A DNA stretch of 26,643 nucleotides from a virus, in IMG/VR virus record IMGVR_UViG_3300023178_000222, positions 1 to 26,643 of that record; one strand, written 5' to 3'. Positions 1,442-9,240 of the stretch are shown piece by piece. Both the position numbers and the translations under genes were made by a program. Within the stretch, counting starts at the first letter, position 1; every line of letters starts with the position of its first letter. The notes under the pieces are model-generated. The model was not told the origin of the DNA, did no database searches, and saw only the letters and a program-made list of their open reading frames with translations.

Positions 1442-3300
1442 GGAGTACACAAATTCCTCTGTTCACACCAGAAACAGAATGGGTTATGCCTGAAGAACTA
1501 AAAGATCTTCGTGGGGCCAAAGAAATAGCAATTGACTTAGAGACGAATGATCCTCAGTTATTAGAGCTAGGCTCTGGTAATGTCACTGGAAAAGGGCACA
1601 TTGCTGGCGTTGCGGTGGCCGTAGAGGGGTGGTCAGGCTATTTTCCTATACAACACGAGTCTGGTGGAAATATGGACAAAAAACTGGTTTTTTCGTGGCT
1701 CCAAGACTTATTCAATCAAGAGGATTCTACCTTTATATTTCACAATGCAATGTATGATATTTGTTGGTTACGATCAGCAGGACTAACAATCAAAGGTAAA
1801 ATTGTAGATACAATGATAGCGGCCAGTTTGATTGATGAAAATAGATTATCGTACCGATTAGATATACTTGCAAAACATTATGTGGGTATGGGTAAGGATG
1901 AAAATATTTTACAAGCCGCAGCAAAAGAATACGGACTCGATGCAAAAAAAGATATGTGGAGATTACCCGCGATGTTTGTTGGGCAGTACGCGGAGCGTGA
2001 TGCAGAGTCTACACTTAAACTTTGGAAACGATTAGAAACAGAATTATACCATCAAGAACTTTGGGATGTATTTAATTTAGAGACAAAATTATTTCCGTGT
2101 TTAGTAGATATGAGATTCAAAGGTGTCAGAGTCGATCTCGACAAAGCTGACAAAATTAAAAAATATTTAATAGATAAAGAGCGAAAAATAATTAATAAAA
2201 TCAAGGACTTAACAGGAGTTGATGTAGAAATTATGGCGGCTCGAAGTATTGCAAAAGCTTTTGACAAATTAAAACTACCGTATGACAGAACTGCAAAAAG
2301 TAATGAACCAAGTTTTACAAAAAACTTTTTACAAAACCATCCACACGAATTACCAAAAGCAATTGCTGAAGCAAGAGAAATAAATAAAGCACATAGCACA
2401 TTTATAGATTCAATAACTAAACACGCAGTTGATGGAAGAATACACGCAGATATAAATCAAATAAGATCAGATCAAGGTGGAACTGTTACAGGAAGATTTA
2501 GTATGTCTAATCCAAACCTACAACAAATTCCTGCAAGACATCCAGAGTTAGGTCCTTTGATTAGATCTATTTTTATTCCAGAAAAAAATACAACGTGGGG
2601 ATCGTTCGACTACTCACAACAAGAACCAAGAATTTTAGTACACTATGCAAAGCTACAAAACTTAACTGGTGTAGATGAAATTGTAGATGCGTACAATGCA
2701 GGTGATGCAGACTTCCACCAGGTTGTTGCAGATATGGCAGGCATTGAACGTAAACAAGCTAAAACTATTAACCTTGGTTTGATGTATGGTATGGGTAAAA
2801 ATAAATTAATGGCAGAACTAGGTTTGATGAAAGAGTCTGCAGAAAAACTAATTAGACAATATCATTCAAGAGCTCCGTTTGTAAAACAATTGATGGATAA
2901 TGTATCACGTAAAGCAAATGATCGTGGTAAGATTAGAACACTAGGTGGTCGGGCCTGTCATTTTGATTTATGGCAACCTGTTCAATTTGGTGTTTATAAA
3001 CCATTACCATTAGAACAAGCACGAAAAGAATATGATGAACCATTAAAACGTGCATTTACTTACAAAGCATTAAATAAATTAATTCAGGGATCCGCCGCAG
3101 ATATGACAAAAAAATCAATGGTGGCACTCTATGAAAATGGTATAGTACCACACATTCAAATTCACGATGAAGTAGATATTTCTGTTGAGTCTGATGCAAA
3201 AGCAGAAGAGATAATACAAATTATGGAGTCTGCAGTAGAATTAAAAGTCCCTAACAAAGTAGATTACGAGGCGGGGGCTAACTGGGGTGATATTAAGTAA
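1438..3300 (+). CDS. polA: Family A DNA polymerase (PolA) with 3'-5' exonuclease domain
   Basis: This is the replicative polymerase, 620 aa. The N-terminal half is a DEDDy proofreading domain: D33/E35 (AIDLET), D107 (FHNAMYD) and Y184/D188 (YAERD). The polymerase domain has motif A with D391 (DYSQQEP), the O-helix motif B from R439 (RKQAK, then TINLGLMYG) and motif C H576-D577-E578 (HDEVD). There is no 5'-3' exonuclease domain, as is usual for phage enzymes. The O-helix residue matching E. coli Phe762 is Leu (L446); in phage surveys this has been linked to slower, more accurate and often temperate-type replication. The start is GTG, overlapping the DUF3310 stop by 4 bases. The stop TAA overlaps the next ATG (TAATG). 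All catalytic residues are intact. Confidence 0.97.
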   Translation: MRSTQIPLFTPETEWVMPEELKDLRGAKEIAIDLETNDPQLLELGSGNVTGKGHIAGVAVAVEGWSGYFPIQHESGGNMDKKLVFSWLQDLFNQEDSTFIFHNAMYDICWLRSAGLTIKGKIVDTMIAASLIDENRLSYRLDILAKHYVGMGKDENILQAAAKEYGLDAKKDMWRLPAMFVGQYAERDAESTLKLWKRLETELYHQELWDVFNLETKLFPCLVDMRFKGVRVDLDKADKIKKYLIDKERKIINKIKDLTGVDVEIMAARSIAKAFDKLKLPYDRTAKSNEPSFTKNFLQNHPHELPKAIAEAREINKAHSTFIDSITKHAVDGRIHADINQIRSDQGGTVTGRFSMSNPNLQQIPARHPELGPLIRSIFIPEKNTTWGSFDYSQQEPRILVHYAKLQNLTGVDEIVDAYNAGDADFHQVVADMAGIERKQAKTINLGLMYGMGKNKLMAELGLMKESAEKLIRQYHSRAPFVKQLMDNVSRKANDRGKIRTLGGRACHFDLWQPVQFGVYKPLPLEQARKEYDEPLKRAFTYKALNKLIQGSAADMTKKSMVALYENGIVPHIQIHDEVDISVESDAKAEEIIQIMESAVELKVPNKVDYEAGANWGDIK

Positions 3301-3950
3301 TGGCATATTTAAACGCAAACATACCAACCATTTATGCACAGGTGAGAAGGGAGTATTTATATGATCTTAAAAAGCATCACGGAGAAGTTGAAGACTGTAT
3401 TATCTTCGGTATTACTAGTATGGGGGGCCGTGCTATATTATTTCACGCTCTTATGGGTAACGGTGCAATATTTTATCGCTTACCAATTAGCGCGTTTATT
3501 CAAAAGGGATTTGACCCATCCAGAGTGCCCACAAGAAGACTTGATGAACTGGAGCTTTGGAATTGTTTTTCTTATTATCCTACTGTCACTCATTGGGCTA
3601 TTTTAAGCGCAGCTTCAGGTTATTATTTTGGTAAAGATAAAAAGAAACACTATGGATCTTATTTATTTACAGTTGACTGGGGACACCCAGATGCTAATAT
3701 ACTAGATACTGACCATTCAGAGATACCGCACGAACATAAGTGCGCTCACATAATTGCTTTAGATGATGGCAATTTTGCAGCACAACCTAACAACAGATGT
3801 ATATGGGATTTACCTTCATTCACTGTCAAAGATAATGTGCCTGATTGGAAAGTACAGACTAATGAATGGAACGTGGAAGATTCAGGTAAGTGGAGAACCG
3901 CTGATACTGATGACTTCTTCTACGAGATCGAGGAGCAAAAAGATGATTGA
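3300..3950 (+). CDS. Conserved-looking phage protein of unknown function, 216 aa
   Basis: This 216-aa soluble-looking protein starts in a TAATG overlap with polA and is followed at once by a small membrane gene. It is rich in aromatic and His residues (SYYPTVTHW, YYFGKDKKKHYGS, HSEIPHEHKCAH) and ends in an acidic tail (DDFFYEIEEQKDD). I recall similar proteins next to PolA in marine phages but cannot name a family. No catalytic motif is evident; the HxEIPHEHKCAH stretch could bind a metal, but that is a guess. Co-transcription with polA suggests an early or replication-linked role. A second frame inside it (3361-3606) is also open with its own ribosome-binding site. Confidence 0.8.
   Translation: MAYLNANIPTIYAQVRREYLYDLKKHHGEVEDCIIFGITSMGGRAILFHALMGNGAIFYRLPISAFIQKGFDPSRVPTRRLDELELWNCFSYYPTVTHWAILSAASGYYFGKDKKKHYGSYLFTVDWGHPDANILDTDHSEIPHEHKCAHIIALDDGNFAAQPNNRCIWDLPSFTVKDNVPDWKVQTNEWNVEDSGKWRTADTDDFFYEIEEQKDD
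3361..3606 (+). CDS. Possible nested membrane-protein ORF, 81 aa
   Basis: This ORF lies wholly inside the 216-aa gene in another frame. It has an ideally placed Shine-Dalgarno AAGGGAG, 7 bases before its ATG. The product looks like a real two-span membrane protein: a basic amphipathic N-terminus (MILKSITEKLK), a hydrophobic segment at about residues 17-41, a charged linker (ARLFKRD), and a second hydrophobic segment at about 65-81 ending at the stop. That plan resembles small holins. A hydrophobic shadow frame could arise by chance, so this stays a candidate. The enclosing gene looks more certain than this one. Confidence 0.3.
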   Translation: MILKSITEKLKTVLSSVLLVWGAVLYYFTLLWVTVQYFIAYQLARLFKRDLTHPECPQEDLMNWSFGIVFLIILLSLIGLF

Positions 3951-5689: not shown

Positions 5690-5935
5690 ATGTCAGAAAA
5701 TGAAATGAAAATATTATTAGCTTTAACAAGCAACATTAGAATAGGTGTTTTAATGTTAGATAGAGCTAATGATTTAAAAGAAATGGAGCTTCTTCTTAAA
5801 TATCCAGAGCATAAAGATATGATACAAGATGAAGCTTATGAAGAAAAAAGAGATGAAATGTTAAAAGGTACTCAACCTTATACATTAAAAAGATTTGAGG
5901 AAGAGAGGAAAGGAACCAATGGCAGATCCAAATAA
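5690..5935 (+). CDS. Hypothetical protein, 81 aa
   Basis: This is the first gene after the internal promoter, with a clear Shine-Dalgarno (AAAGGAAA). The protein is helical and acidic in its middle part (MLDRANDLKEMELLLKYPEHK) and becomes basic near the end. No cysteine pairs, membrane segments or known motifs are seen. Its last bases overlap the start of the ribbon-helix-helix candidate. Being promoter-proximal and next to a likely DNA-binding protein, it could be regulatory, but nothing in the sequence shows this. Confidence 0.68.
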   Translation: MSENEMKILLALTSNIRIGVLMLDRANDLKEMELLLKYPEHKDMIQDEAYEEKRDEMLKGTQPYTLKRFEEERKGTNGRSK

Positions 5936-6107
5936 ATTTAAATCTGTATCAGTACCAATTGATACTTACAAGAAACTTCGCTTTCTTGCTAATGGTAAAT
6001 TTTTAGATGCAGAACTAACAGTCAGTAAAACAATCGAAGCGCTCGCATCAAGAGCAGCTAAGAAGTTAGGATATAAAAATGGAAAAGCGAAAGATAATTT
6101 GTCCTGA
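5919..6107 (+). CDS. Ribbon-helix-helix-like small protein, 62 aa
   Basis: The start is the ATG at 5919, with AAAGGAAC just before it; the frame is open further upstream but lacks a better site. The sequence KSVSVPIDTYKKLRFLANG followed by TVSKTIEALASRA has the short beta-strand, helix, turn, helix pattern of Arc/MetJ/CopG-type DNA-binding proteins (strand residues alternate as in SVSVP). Such proteins bind DNA as dimers and often repress their own operon. Basic residues are concentrated in the C-terminal part (RAAKKLGYKNGKAK). The assignment is by pattern only. Confidence 0.6.
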   Translation: MADPNKFKSVSVPIDTYKKLRFLANGKFLDAELTVSKTIEALASRAAKKLGYKNGKAKDNLS

Positions 6108-6261
6108 GTGTAGAGGCAACGGCTTTACATACAACGATATTAAAAAAGATTTGTTTGATGTAGAGCAATGTTTAATCTGTAACTCCGAAGGTGAGTTAAC
6201 CGTTTGTGGTGAGACGGAAGATAAGTTTAAAGACGTGGTAAATCGTGCACGGTTGCAATGA
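6079..6261 (+). CDS. DnaJ-type zinc-finger miniprotein, 60 aa
   Basis: The protein has CPECRGNGFT near residue 8 and CLICNSEGEL near residue 31. These are the paired CxxCxGxG-like knuckles of the DnaJ cysteine-rich domain, enough for one zinc site. It lacks a J-domain. In some SAR116/SAR11 phages a DnaJ-like zinc domain is associated with the DNA polymerase, from memory, so a replication role is possible. It overlaps the upstream gene by 29 bases and the homing-endonuclease start by 4 bases (ATGA). Confidence 0.7.
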   Translation: MEKRKIICPECRGNGFTYNDIKKDLFDVEQCLICNSEGELTVCGETEDKFKDVVNRARLQ

Positions 6262-6698
6262 ACGACACCGACATAGCTTATATCGCCGGTTTGTTTGACG
6301 GCGAAGGTTCGATTCATATAAGACGTGGTATTGAAAAAAAGAAAAAACATAACAACAAACCAGGTTATAGATTATCGAATAGTATGAGATTATCTATGGA
6401 AATTACTATGACTGACCGTAGTGTTTTAATTTGGTTGCACGAAGTATTAGGTGTTGGGACCTTAACTCCTAAAACTGTAAAAGGTAAACGAGTTGATGGA
6501 ACACCTTATCTAAAACAATGGCGATGGCGTTGCACATTCCGTGATGCATTTAAAGTTTGTTGTTTATTGTTTCCTTACGCTCATACTAAACTTGGTAAGA
6601 TACAACAAGTTATTGAACACTATACTAGTATCCCTAAAGAAGTTGTAAAAGATAATGTGGTTAACTTTGAACATTATAAAATGTGGATTAAAAAATAA
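6258..6698 (+). CDS. Single-motif LAGLIDADG homing endonuclease, 146 aa
   Basis: Residues 8-19 (YIAGLFDGEGSI) are a LAGLIDADG motif, with D14/E16 at the catalytic end. A positively charged region follows (IRRGIEKKKKHNN) and a DNA-contacting core with KQWRWRCTF. One motif in 146 aa implies a homodimer that cuts a near-palindromic site. The gene is free-standing: it is coupled to both neighbours (ATGA upstream, shared base downstream), and neither polA nor terL in this window is split by an intron. It may act as a selfish element or have been recruited for phage recombination. Domain identity is strong; target unknown. Confidence 0.85.
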   Translation: MNDTDIAYIAGLFDGEGSIHIRRGIEKKKKHNNKPGYRLSNSMRLSMEITMTDRSVLIWLHEVLGVGTLTPKTVKGKRVDGTPYLKQWRWRCTFRDAFKVCCLLFPYAHTKLGKIQQVIEHYTSIPKEVVKDNVVNFEHYKMWIKK

Positions 6699-7937: not shown

Positions 7938-7944
7938 AATGCTT

Positions 7945-7961
7945 CTTAGAATCATTCTAAG
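7945..7961. promoter_or_regulatory. Operator-like palindrome
   Basis: CTTAGAAT, one central C, then ATTCTAAG: a perfect 8+1+8 dyad. TTAGAAT also occurs 12 bases earlier (7934-7940) as a direct repeat. This looks like a repressor site, possibly for the ribbon-helix-helix candidate at 5919. Confidence 0.5.
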
Positions 7962-7970
7962 TGTGCCAAA

Positions 7971-8268
7971 CTATAGTGGAATATTTGGGCAAATTTTTTT
8001 TTCAGTGATAAAAAAAAACTGGTGGCACAGGTGGCACAGTGCCAAAAATAGGCTAGAAGTGTTGGTATTAGCGAATAATAGGTGTGCCACGGCGTTGAAT
8101 TATGGTGGCACAGCGTGGCACAAATGGTGATTTTATTGACTTTTTTGCAAATATGCCTTGGCACAGTCAAATTAGTGTTGATTTTACTAGCTTTTTCAGG
8201 AATGTATTCGGCGCGCGCGACCCTTTTTGGTTTTTTAAAAACTTTTTTGCCCAAATATTCCCCTATAG
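7971..8268. repeat. 23-bp inverted repeat pair bracketing the iterons
   Basis: The left arm 7971-7993 and the reverse complement of the right arm 8246-8268 agree at 22 of 23 positions; 16 of these, GGAATATTTGGGCAAA, are contiguous. The arms are 252 bases apart. Each also contains a form of the TATTCC-TATAG motif seen in other control regions. Confidence 0.75.
8022..8122. repeat. Five GTGGCACA iterons
   Basis: Exact copies lie on the plus strand at 8022-8029, 8031-8038, 8105-8112 and 8115-8122, and in reverse complement at 8083-8090. Seven-of-eight matches flank the cluster at about 7962 and 8158. Copies come in pairs 9-10 bases apart, about one helical turn. Confidence 0.75.
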
Positions 8269-8276
8269 AGTATAAA
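8247..8276 (+). promoter_or_regulatory. Promoter candidate for 8284
   Basis: TTGCCC (8247-8252) and TATAAA (8271-8276) are 18 bases apart, with ATATTCCCCTATAG in the spacer. The ATG is only 7 bases after the -10 box, so a transcript from here would be nearly leaderless. The same layout (18-bp spacer with TATTCCC) recurs at 12183. Confidence 0.45.
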
Positions 8277-8283
8277 CCCAGAT

Positions 8284-8574
8284 ATGAAACGTCCTAAAAA
8301 ATCTAAATACAAATCTGTTGTTATCAACAAGAAGCGATATTACTATTACAAAATTACCTGGATTGATCCGACAGGTGATAGCGGGCACGCTACACATCAC
8401 GACTCGTATGGTTTGATACCATCTACGATGATAACCCACGCTTATGTATTTGATAAGAATAAAAAATACATATGGACGTTTGCATCTTACGAAGAGAATG
8501 ATGAGTTATTTTCTGATAGAAATGTATTTCCTGTTGGGTGTATAATTAAAATGGAAAAAATAAATGAAAAATAA
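8284..8574 (+). CDS. Hypothetical protein, 96 aa
   Basis: The protein is rich in Tyr and Lys, with a basic start (MKRPKKSKYKS, KKRYYYYKITWIDPTGDSGHA) and a compact beta-like remainder (YVFDKNKKYIWTFASYEE, VFPVGCIIKME). The ITWIDPTGDSGH stretch resembles small phage beta-barrel proteins whose role is unknown. There is no Shine-Dalgarno before the ATG, fitting a leaderless mRNA from the promoter at 8247. The next gene overlaps its end by 11 bases. No family recognised with confidence. Confidence 0.7.
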   Translation: MKRPKKSKYKSVVINKKRYYYYKITWIDPTGDSGHATHHDSYGLIPSTMITHAYVFDKNKKYIWTFASYEENDELFSDRNVFPVGCIIKMEKINEK

Positions 8575-8722
8575 AACCTTGACTAAGAATATGCCTAACG
8601 TAAAATGGGATCAACTACCACCAAGACGTGGGCCCAATCCACAAGGATTAAATTATGGAAATGTACACAGGAATAACAAACAAGTGGTCACTAGTAAAAA
8701 AGTTTCCAAGAAGAATATTTAG
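8564..8722 (+). CDS. Small basic protein, 52 aa
   Basis: This 52-aa ORF overlaps the 96-aa gene by 11 bases and ends 5 bases before the convergent small terminase gene. The core KWDQLPPRRGPNPQGLNYG is a Pro/Arg/Gly motif I recall from similar marine phage miniproteins, which supports its being real. The tail is basic (SKKVSKKNI). It has no membrane segment or cysteine. Function unknown; it could associate with packaging because of its neighbour, but it is on the opposite strand. Confidence 0.62.
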   Translation: MKNKTLTKNMPNVKWDQLPPRRGPNPQGLNYGNVHRNNKQVVTSKKVSKKNI

Positions 8723-8727
8723 TAAAA

Positions 8728-9240
8728 TTATTTCTTCTTTGAATCACTATCAAGGCTTGCTTGTTCTATTGATTCTTCTATCTCTTCTTCTGGGGTAATA
8801 TTAATTAAAGTTTTATGGTCGTCTAAGATTTGTTTCATCTTAGCTTCTAATTCTTTTTCAGACATATTATCTAGATTACCAGACAAGACTAGTTTTTGAT
8901 CTACATATAAACCACCCGCTTTACCTCTAGCTATCTCTGCGTTTATGGCGGCTGACCACGCACCTTTTTCACGTGCGTCCTCTCGTAGCTTTGCTAGTTC
9001 ACCAATGTGTTTTTCAAAAGTGATTCCGTATTTTTCTTGTATCTCTGCTCGTAGCTCACCAATGTATTTAACAACTAATGGTGATAATTTTGGATTACGT
9101 AGCTCGCTCGCAGCCTGACGCGGTCTAGTCTTATATCCTGCCTCATACGCACATTCGCTTGGGCTCTTGCGTCCTTCATTGTATACAAGTAATTCTGCAA
9201 ACTTTTGTTGTCGTTCCGTAAGATTTTTAGGTAGTCCCAT
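8728..9240 (-). CDS. terS: Terminase small subunit, 170 aa
   Basis: This is the DNA-recognition subunit of the packaging motor. An N-terminal helix-turn-helix-like region (LTERQQKFAELLV, then CAYEAGYKTRPRQAASEL) is the usual terminase small-subunit DNA-binding domain. A long charged helix follows (EIQEKYGITFEKHIGEL), then AAINAEIARGKAGGLYVDQK, a stretch typical of this family, and an acidic C-terminus for contact with the large subunit. It lies on the minus strand, convergent with the 52-aa gene and about 6.8 kb from terL, which is on the plus strand. It is probably transcribed with the minus-strand operon upstream (42-base gap), though no clear Shine-Dalgarno is seen. Confidence 0.88.
   Translation of the reverse strand: MGLPKNLTERQQKFAELLVYNEGRKSPSECAYEAGYKTRPRQAASELRNPKLSPLVVKYIGELRAEIQEKYGITFEKHIGELAKLREDAREKGAWSAAINAEIARGKAGGLYVDQKLVLSGNLDNMSEKELEAKMKQILDDHKTLINITPEEEIEESIEQASLDSDSKKK

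Follow-up and report, generated by a model that had tools for sequence, protein, structure and literature searches.

A conserved iteron array in an HTVC023P-type pelagiphage as a probable replication origin, putatively recognised by the winged helix of an AEP primase

Where the pelagiphages of the HTVC023P type begin to copy their DNA is a question on which a genome paper on these phages is silent, as it names no origin (PMC9599517). The window analysed here (the whole stretch of 26,643 nucleotides, IMG/VR record IMGVR_UViG_3300023178_000222) contains a non-coding stretch of about 300 bases, filled with short repeats and enclosed by inverted arms, which is very probably the start of phage DNA copying. 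We consider it highly likely that positions 7962-8268 form an HTVC023P-type replication origin that is bound by the AEP primase of these phages via a winged helix.

The window belongs to an HTVC023P/HTVC027P-type pelagiphage. In sequence comparisons, its PolA is 89.5% identical to that of phage 023Pt_psg01, and 54.5% and 51.8% identical to the PolA of the Pelagibacter phages HTVC027P and HTVC023P, respectively. Upstream of the array, the plus strand carries replication genes encoding a UvrD-like helicase, PolA and a PD-(D/E)XK exonuclease; downstream, two small plus-strand genes are followed by the convergent gene for the small terminase subunit (TerS). The proposal of the earlier note that the array closes the replication operon therefore holds only in part: replication genes do lead up to the array, but the genes at 8284-8574 and 8564-8722 still follow it. 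Elsewhere in the window, annotations conflict for positions 3300-3950, which PHROG labels 'ferredoxin' and the annotation of relatives labels phosphoribosylaminoimidazole synthetase. The features relevant to the locus are the following.

5919-6107, plus strand: small ribbon-helix-helix-like (RHH-like) DNA-binding candidate, read by eye, no family match
6258-6698: LAGLIDADG-like gene
7962-7968, minus strand: iteron A, TGGCACA, inverted site, 58-61 bp ahead of the B/C pair in most relatives
7971-7993, plus strand: left inverted-repeat arm, CTATAGTGGAATATTTGGGCAAA, 22 of 23 positions matching the right arm
7992-8018, no strand: A/T-rich tract separating iteron A from the B/C pair, putative melting site
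8022-8029, plus strand: iteron B, GTGGCACA, exact repeat
8031-8038, plus strand: iteron C, GTGGCACA, exact repeat, 9 bp past B
8059-8081, no strand: inner element, GTGTTGGTATTAGCGAATAATAG, found in a loose form in 69 of 97 arrays
8083-8090, minus strand: iteron D, inverted GTGGCACA, exact repeat
8105-8112, plus strand: iteron E, GTGGCACA, exact repeat
8115-8122, plus strand: iteron F, GTGGCACA, exact repeat, 10 bp past E
8159-8165, plus strand: iteron G, TGGCACA, core match
8210-8219, no strand: GGCGCGCGCG block, then T runs; GCGCGCG in 83 of 97 arrays
8246-8268, minus strand: right inverted-repeat arm, pairing with 7971-7993
8284-8574, plus strand: gene of 96 amino acids, kept in relatives, starting just past the right arm; a 54% homologue also in HTVC111P
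8564-8722, plus strand: second small gene, likewise kept in relatives
8728-9240, minus strand: TerS gene (phrog_51)

The repeats and arms are real and far beyond chance. Both had been described in the earlier note and were found again at the same places: five exact copies of GTGGCACA, four direct and one inverted, begin at 8022, 8031, 8083 (minus strand), 8105 and 8115 and span 101 bases, and the arms match at 22 of 23 positions. The whole window contains six GTGGCACA matches (0.43 expected), five of them in the array; none of 1000 dinucleotide shuffles of 7938-8283 gave five copies of any 8-mer, and the best 8-mer count in any other stretch of the window is three. The array extends beyond the five 8-mers, as the core TGGCACA marks seven sites from 7962 (minus) to 8159 (plus). 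The arm pair is unique in the window (23 nt, at most one mismatch, 40-330 apart), and its similarity stretches weakly to 45 nt at 76%. A search for a structured RNA gave no Rfam match.

To follow the array beyond the window, eighty relatives were fetched via the exonuclease and further ones by iteron pattern. The array is present in nearly all relatives whose sequence covers the locus, in the order minus site, about 60 bp, 9-bp pair, about 50 bp, minus site, 13 or 22 bp, 10-bp pair, 43 bp, single site. The A-B spacing is exactly 60 in 59 of 70 arrays and the B-D spacing 59-61 bp in 88 of 93. Among 97 distinct arrays, B and C are 9 bp apart in 82 and 8 bp apart in 15, D-E is 22 or 13, E-F is 10 or 9, and F-G mostly 42-43; the relatives cannot be counted as independent, and in many cases the search pattern that led to them already required a pair and an inverted site. 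Sites and arms are conserved in close relatives, the point on which the earlier note had staked its origin reading, and A/T runs are present in the relatives as well. Looser analogues occupy the corresponding gap in HTVC023P (a TAGGAA array) and HTVC027P (a TGTKACA array). The arms of HTVC023P, HTVC027P and DSL-LC04 lie at the corresponding place and differ in sequence, with complementarities of 78% over 27 nt, 74% over 23 nt and 83% over 36 nt, respectively. Arm co-variation exceeded shuffled pairing (13.8 vs 11.2), in a set that mixes kin and unrelated loci and provides a hint only. In Pseudomonas phage KPP25 (L351/L345), a TCGTAA array that resembles these in its pair and inverted sites occupies an unannotated gap (L345:6838-7100), adjoining a threefold 49-nt repeat.

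In some relatives, all sites have switched together to CGGCAAG/TGGCAAG or to TGGTCA, while the layout is unchanged. Such coherent switching points to a single sequence-specific binder. The inner element GTGTTGGTATTAGCGAATAATAG occurs in relatives of all three iteron types and may be the site of a second factor. The binder was sought among the proteins of these phages by a column scan of eighteen proteins in 22 contigs that contain both array and AEP primase (16 TGGCAC, 4 GGCAAG and 2 TGGTCA contigs); the scan thus covers only six non-TGGCAC contigs, some of them close kin, and many columns, and orf8341 and the LAGLIDADG-like protein had too few members to be scored. In the primase, exactly one column splits TGGCAC from GGCAAG phages, and the same column splits all three types (Arg, Thr and Ala/Pro). 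The probability of this split would be about one in a million if the 22 contigs were independent, which they are not, and many columns were scanned. No column separates the iteron types in TerS, PolA, DUF3310 and several small proteins. UvrD has two TGGCAC/GGCAAG columns and the exonuclease one, none of them three-way; Pam3gp33 has ten, with two GGCAAG members, and no three-way column.

The products of the genes at 5919 and 6079, which the earlier note had put forward for binding tests, are unlikely binders. The RHH protein has 17 TGGCAC/GGCAAG columns and three three-way columns in a comparison where the GGCAAG type has only two members and the TGGTCA type one, and these were discounted because the window, itself of the TGGCAC type, shares the RHH version of the GGCAAG phages; relatives whose iteron has switched carry the protein at about 89% identity to that of the window. 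The zinc-ribbon protein encoded at 6079 shows one weak TGGCAC/GGCAAG column and no three-way column. The LAGLIDADG-like protein was rejected as well: its gene is present in 64 of 70 TGGCAC loci and none of five GGCAAG loci, yet one GGCAAG phage (L305) has it at 97% identity. A Dcm methyltransferase goes with the GGCAAG type but was set aside too, as it is missing from L807 and L809. A cytosine-5 DNA methyltransferase, recognised from motifs, occurs in four of six GGCAAG-type phages with enough sequence and in none of 40 TGGCAC phages (L329:9438-11051, L517, L514, L075 and L078). It is encoded upstream of the exonuclease, at a place mostly taken by the LAGLIDADG-like gene in TGGCAC phages.

The primase combines an AEP primase domain with PriCT_1. 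Its gene is located about 10 kb upstream of the array in 023Pt_psg01 and G001, and that of the analysed phage falls outside the window. When one GGCAAG phage was compared with TGGCAC phages, the specific differences in its primase were mostly C-terminal and included the non-conservative pair E477T and R480T. In further phages, the wing residue is Arg with TGGCAC, Thr with CGGCAAG and TGGCAAG, and Ala with TGGTCA. This rule was framed on few contigs and then checked in contigs fetched later, which fit it: L809 combines Thr with GGCAAG, L764 Pro with TGGTCA, and L768 and L763/L159 Arg with TGGCAC. The Thr wing of L809 sits on a TGGCAC-like backbone and the Arg wings of L768 and L159 on GGCAAG-like backbones. 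On a primase tree built without the C-terminus, the iteron labels need 5 changes, compared with 5.6 for shuffled labels, indicating that iteron type does not simply follow primase descent. The TGGTCA-type phage G028 is sister to the TGGCAC-type L159 (support 100/99), and the two TGGTCA phages G028 and L764 stand beside different TGGCAC phages. This scattering suggests repeated switches, each with a change in the wing. In one contig (L323 and L325, the contig behind L072), the AEP primase is broken into several pieces with many in-frame stops, reflecting decay or an assembly error.

The C-terminus of the primase is predicted to fold as a winged helix. A model of the last 111 residues (mean pLDDT 71, pTM 0.64) shows a strand (40-44), two helices (45-54 and 61-70) and two further strands (75-79 and 88-93), which is the winged-helix order, and the co-varying residue, numbered from the alignment, is residue 81, the first of the wing. 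Foldseek returned no match to this model at E <= 0.001; the top match, TcpK of the pCW3 relaxosome, is weak (E 0.046), as are the matches to solved winged helices. A C-terminal profile searched against the PDB found only weak staphylococcal toxin-like chains (E 0.01-0.03), taken as chance. The model of the whole primase was unusable (pLDDT 37). Pfam recognises AEP and PriCT_1 only and no helicase domain in the primase; the helicase is encoded separately.

Searches by TGGTCA and TGGCAA array patterns also led to phages that lack the exonuclease, primase and 8284 genes of the window's family. Where a locus had at least six sites, Pfam was queried with the larger of the genes at the array; besides that of G019, twelve arrays adjoin primase/helicase-type genes, in a raw tally of genes picked by size and closeness and not scored against random expectation. 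These are Prim-Pol/VapE or VapE (L613, L713, L716, L731 and L566), PriCT_2 with AAA_25 (L561), AAA_25 (L575 and L623), D5_N (L536), DnaG (L572) and DUF927 (L668 and L663, the latter with a Cch HTH domain). At six further arrays (L528, L688, L678, L593, L620 and L684), the gene encodes a terminase or portal or has no family match. Two loci in other viral contigs (L580:8370-8505 and L757:3509-3707) contain runs of 13-14 units, either TGGTCA or TGGCAA, at spacings that are multiples of nine bases.

The replication-origin reading is favoured because the winged helix of the primase changes in step with the iterons and because arrays in unrelated phages often abut initiator genes. Together with the conservation of sites and arms, these observations support the origin proposed in the earlier note, its function being what we infer from them. 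The GC-skew check suggested there was also run: a peak near 8.5 kb tracks gene direction and is neutral on the origin.

The strongest rival is a packaging start (pac, or cos), at which TerS would bind the iterons and terminase would cut, since terminase genes lie near the array in many phages. PacA binds hexamers of phage P1. The TerS gene is only 450 bp from the array in the window, the HTVC023P array lies about 100 bp before TerS, and homologues of TerL, TerS or both occur at ten unrelated TGGCAC-array loci. TerS and the iterons do not change together, however: the scan found no separating column, its recognition helix is unchanged across iteron types, L101 and L305 have nearly the same TerS N-terminus but different iterons, and TerS identity falls to about 36% beside the same TGGCAC array. 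In G019, moreover, TerS is about 7 kb off and a Prim-Pol/VapE gene abuts the array. A cos or terminal-repeat end was rejected as contig ends do not gather at the array, which is a weak argument against a fixed cut end. Packaging is thus an improbable explanation. Next to arrays that are otherwise alike, the TerS gene (8728-9240 and orthologues) is between 33% and 100% identical and therefore seems to be exchanged often.

An operator or promoter array that controls 8284 or late genes, with the arms as divergent promoters, would account for the right arm just ahead of the 8284 start codon and for the arms that read outward into TATAG-like ends in several phages. Yet the promoter scan detected no more sites than in shuffles and none on the arms, and the co-varying protein is the primase. 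Divergent phage-RNA-polymerase promoters were likewise rejected because no single-subunit RNA polymerase was found, in a search whose control was silent too. This makes transcriptional control very unlikely. Hardly credible is a site for partition (parS-like) or for recombination (an attachment site that has repeats of the arm type), with the RHH protein as its binder; the repeat style and the small RHH-like protein encoded 2 kb upstream speak for it, but the annotated relatives list no integrase and the RHH protein remains unchanged when the iteron changes. The operator and attachment-site readings are both weak because no protein matches them.

If the array is the replication origin, the primase, consisting of AEP, PriCT_1 and the C-terminal winged helix, would bind the iterons via the winged helix, and primase oligomers on both sides would open the A/T-rich tract. 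The primase would then lay the first primers at the opened tract, to be extended by the phage helicase and PolA. The inverted arms may hold the geometry in place or fold up in single-stranded DNA.

Several known systems share parts of this arrangement. In the origins of PICIs, an A/T-rich region lies between two sets of short iterons; the iterons are recognised by an initiator or primase and vary in sequence between elements (PMC6092414), and SaPI Rep recognises its origin via its C-terminal domain (PMC7581432). The array of the window resembles PICI/SaPI-type origins in that its A/T tract lies between iteron A and the B/C pair; the co-variation and the structural model suggest that a C-terminal domain of the initiator may set iteron specificity here as well. 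The array differs in that the carrier is a lytic tailed phage and the array is enclosed by inverted arms. Furthermore, PICI/SaPI origins lie directly 3' of the initiator gene, in contrast to the primase gene about 10 kb upstream in 023Pt_psg01 and G001, and their initiator has helicase activity, while no helicase domain is recognised in the AEP primase that is the putative binder here. Thus, the pelagiphage array would work like a PICI origin, yet gene adjacency and initiator helicase set it apart from that class.

In SCCmec, the C-terminal domain of Cch2 binds direct repeats specifically, and nearby inverted repeats are not needed for binding (PMC7581432). This putative origin shares the direct repeats and, presumably, the recognition by a C-terminal domain, but contains only three iterons, and Cch2 is a helicase, the primase (CCPol-MP) being separate. 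ORF904 of pRN1 is an AEP primase with a C-terminal winged helix, and the pRN1 origin has a large, obligatory stem-loop in which arm sequence varies and pairing is kept (PMC4234260); likewise, the arms in HTVC027P, HTVC023P and DSL-LC04 are unrelated in sequence and stay 74-83% complementary. However, iterons are absent from pRN1, its ORF904 includes a fused SF3 helicase, and the stem-loop is directly downstream of its gene rather than about 10 kb away. The alpha protein of phage P4 is an initiator that primes and binds origin repeats (PMC4234260), as proposed for the pelagiphage primase, but its primase is of the Toprim type and fused to a helicase.

A broader generalisation is tentative and, in our view, somewhat short of an even chance. 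Facing iteron pairs, phased by 8-10 bp round an A/T core, would be a general design of tailed-phage origins, shared with PICIs and SCCmec, and their initiators (AEP primase, Prim-Pol, D5/VapE, DnaG or DUF927 helicase) would end in a winged helix. In pelagiphages, one wing residue would reset specificity, so that co-infecting kin would not fire each other's origins.

The new part of these findings is the apparent link between the iterons and the primase wing, as read from sequence comparison. Phages of the HTVC023P type belong to the widespread viruses of SAR11, the commonest bacteria of the ocean. If the proposed reading is true, origin, initiator and specificity residue would all be named together for these phages, and natural variants would allow each to be tested. 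Lytic phages would then share an origin organisation that has been described for PICIs only, and the array would provide a sequence rule for locating origins in other phage genomes.
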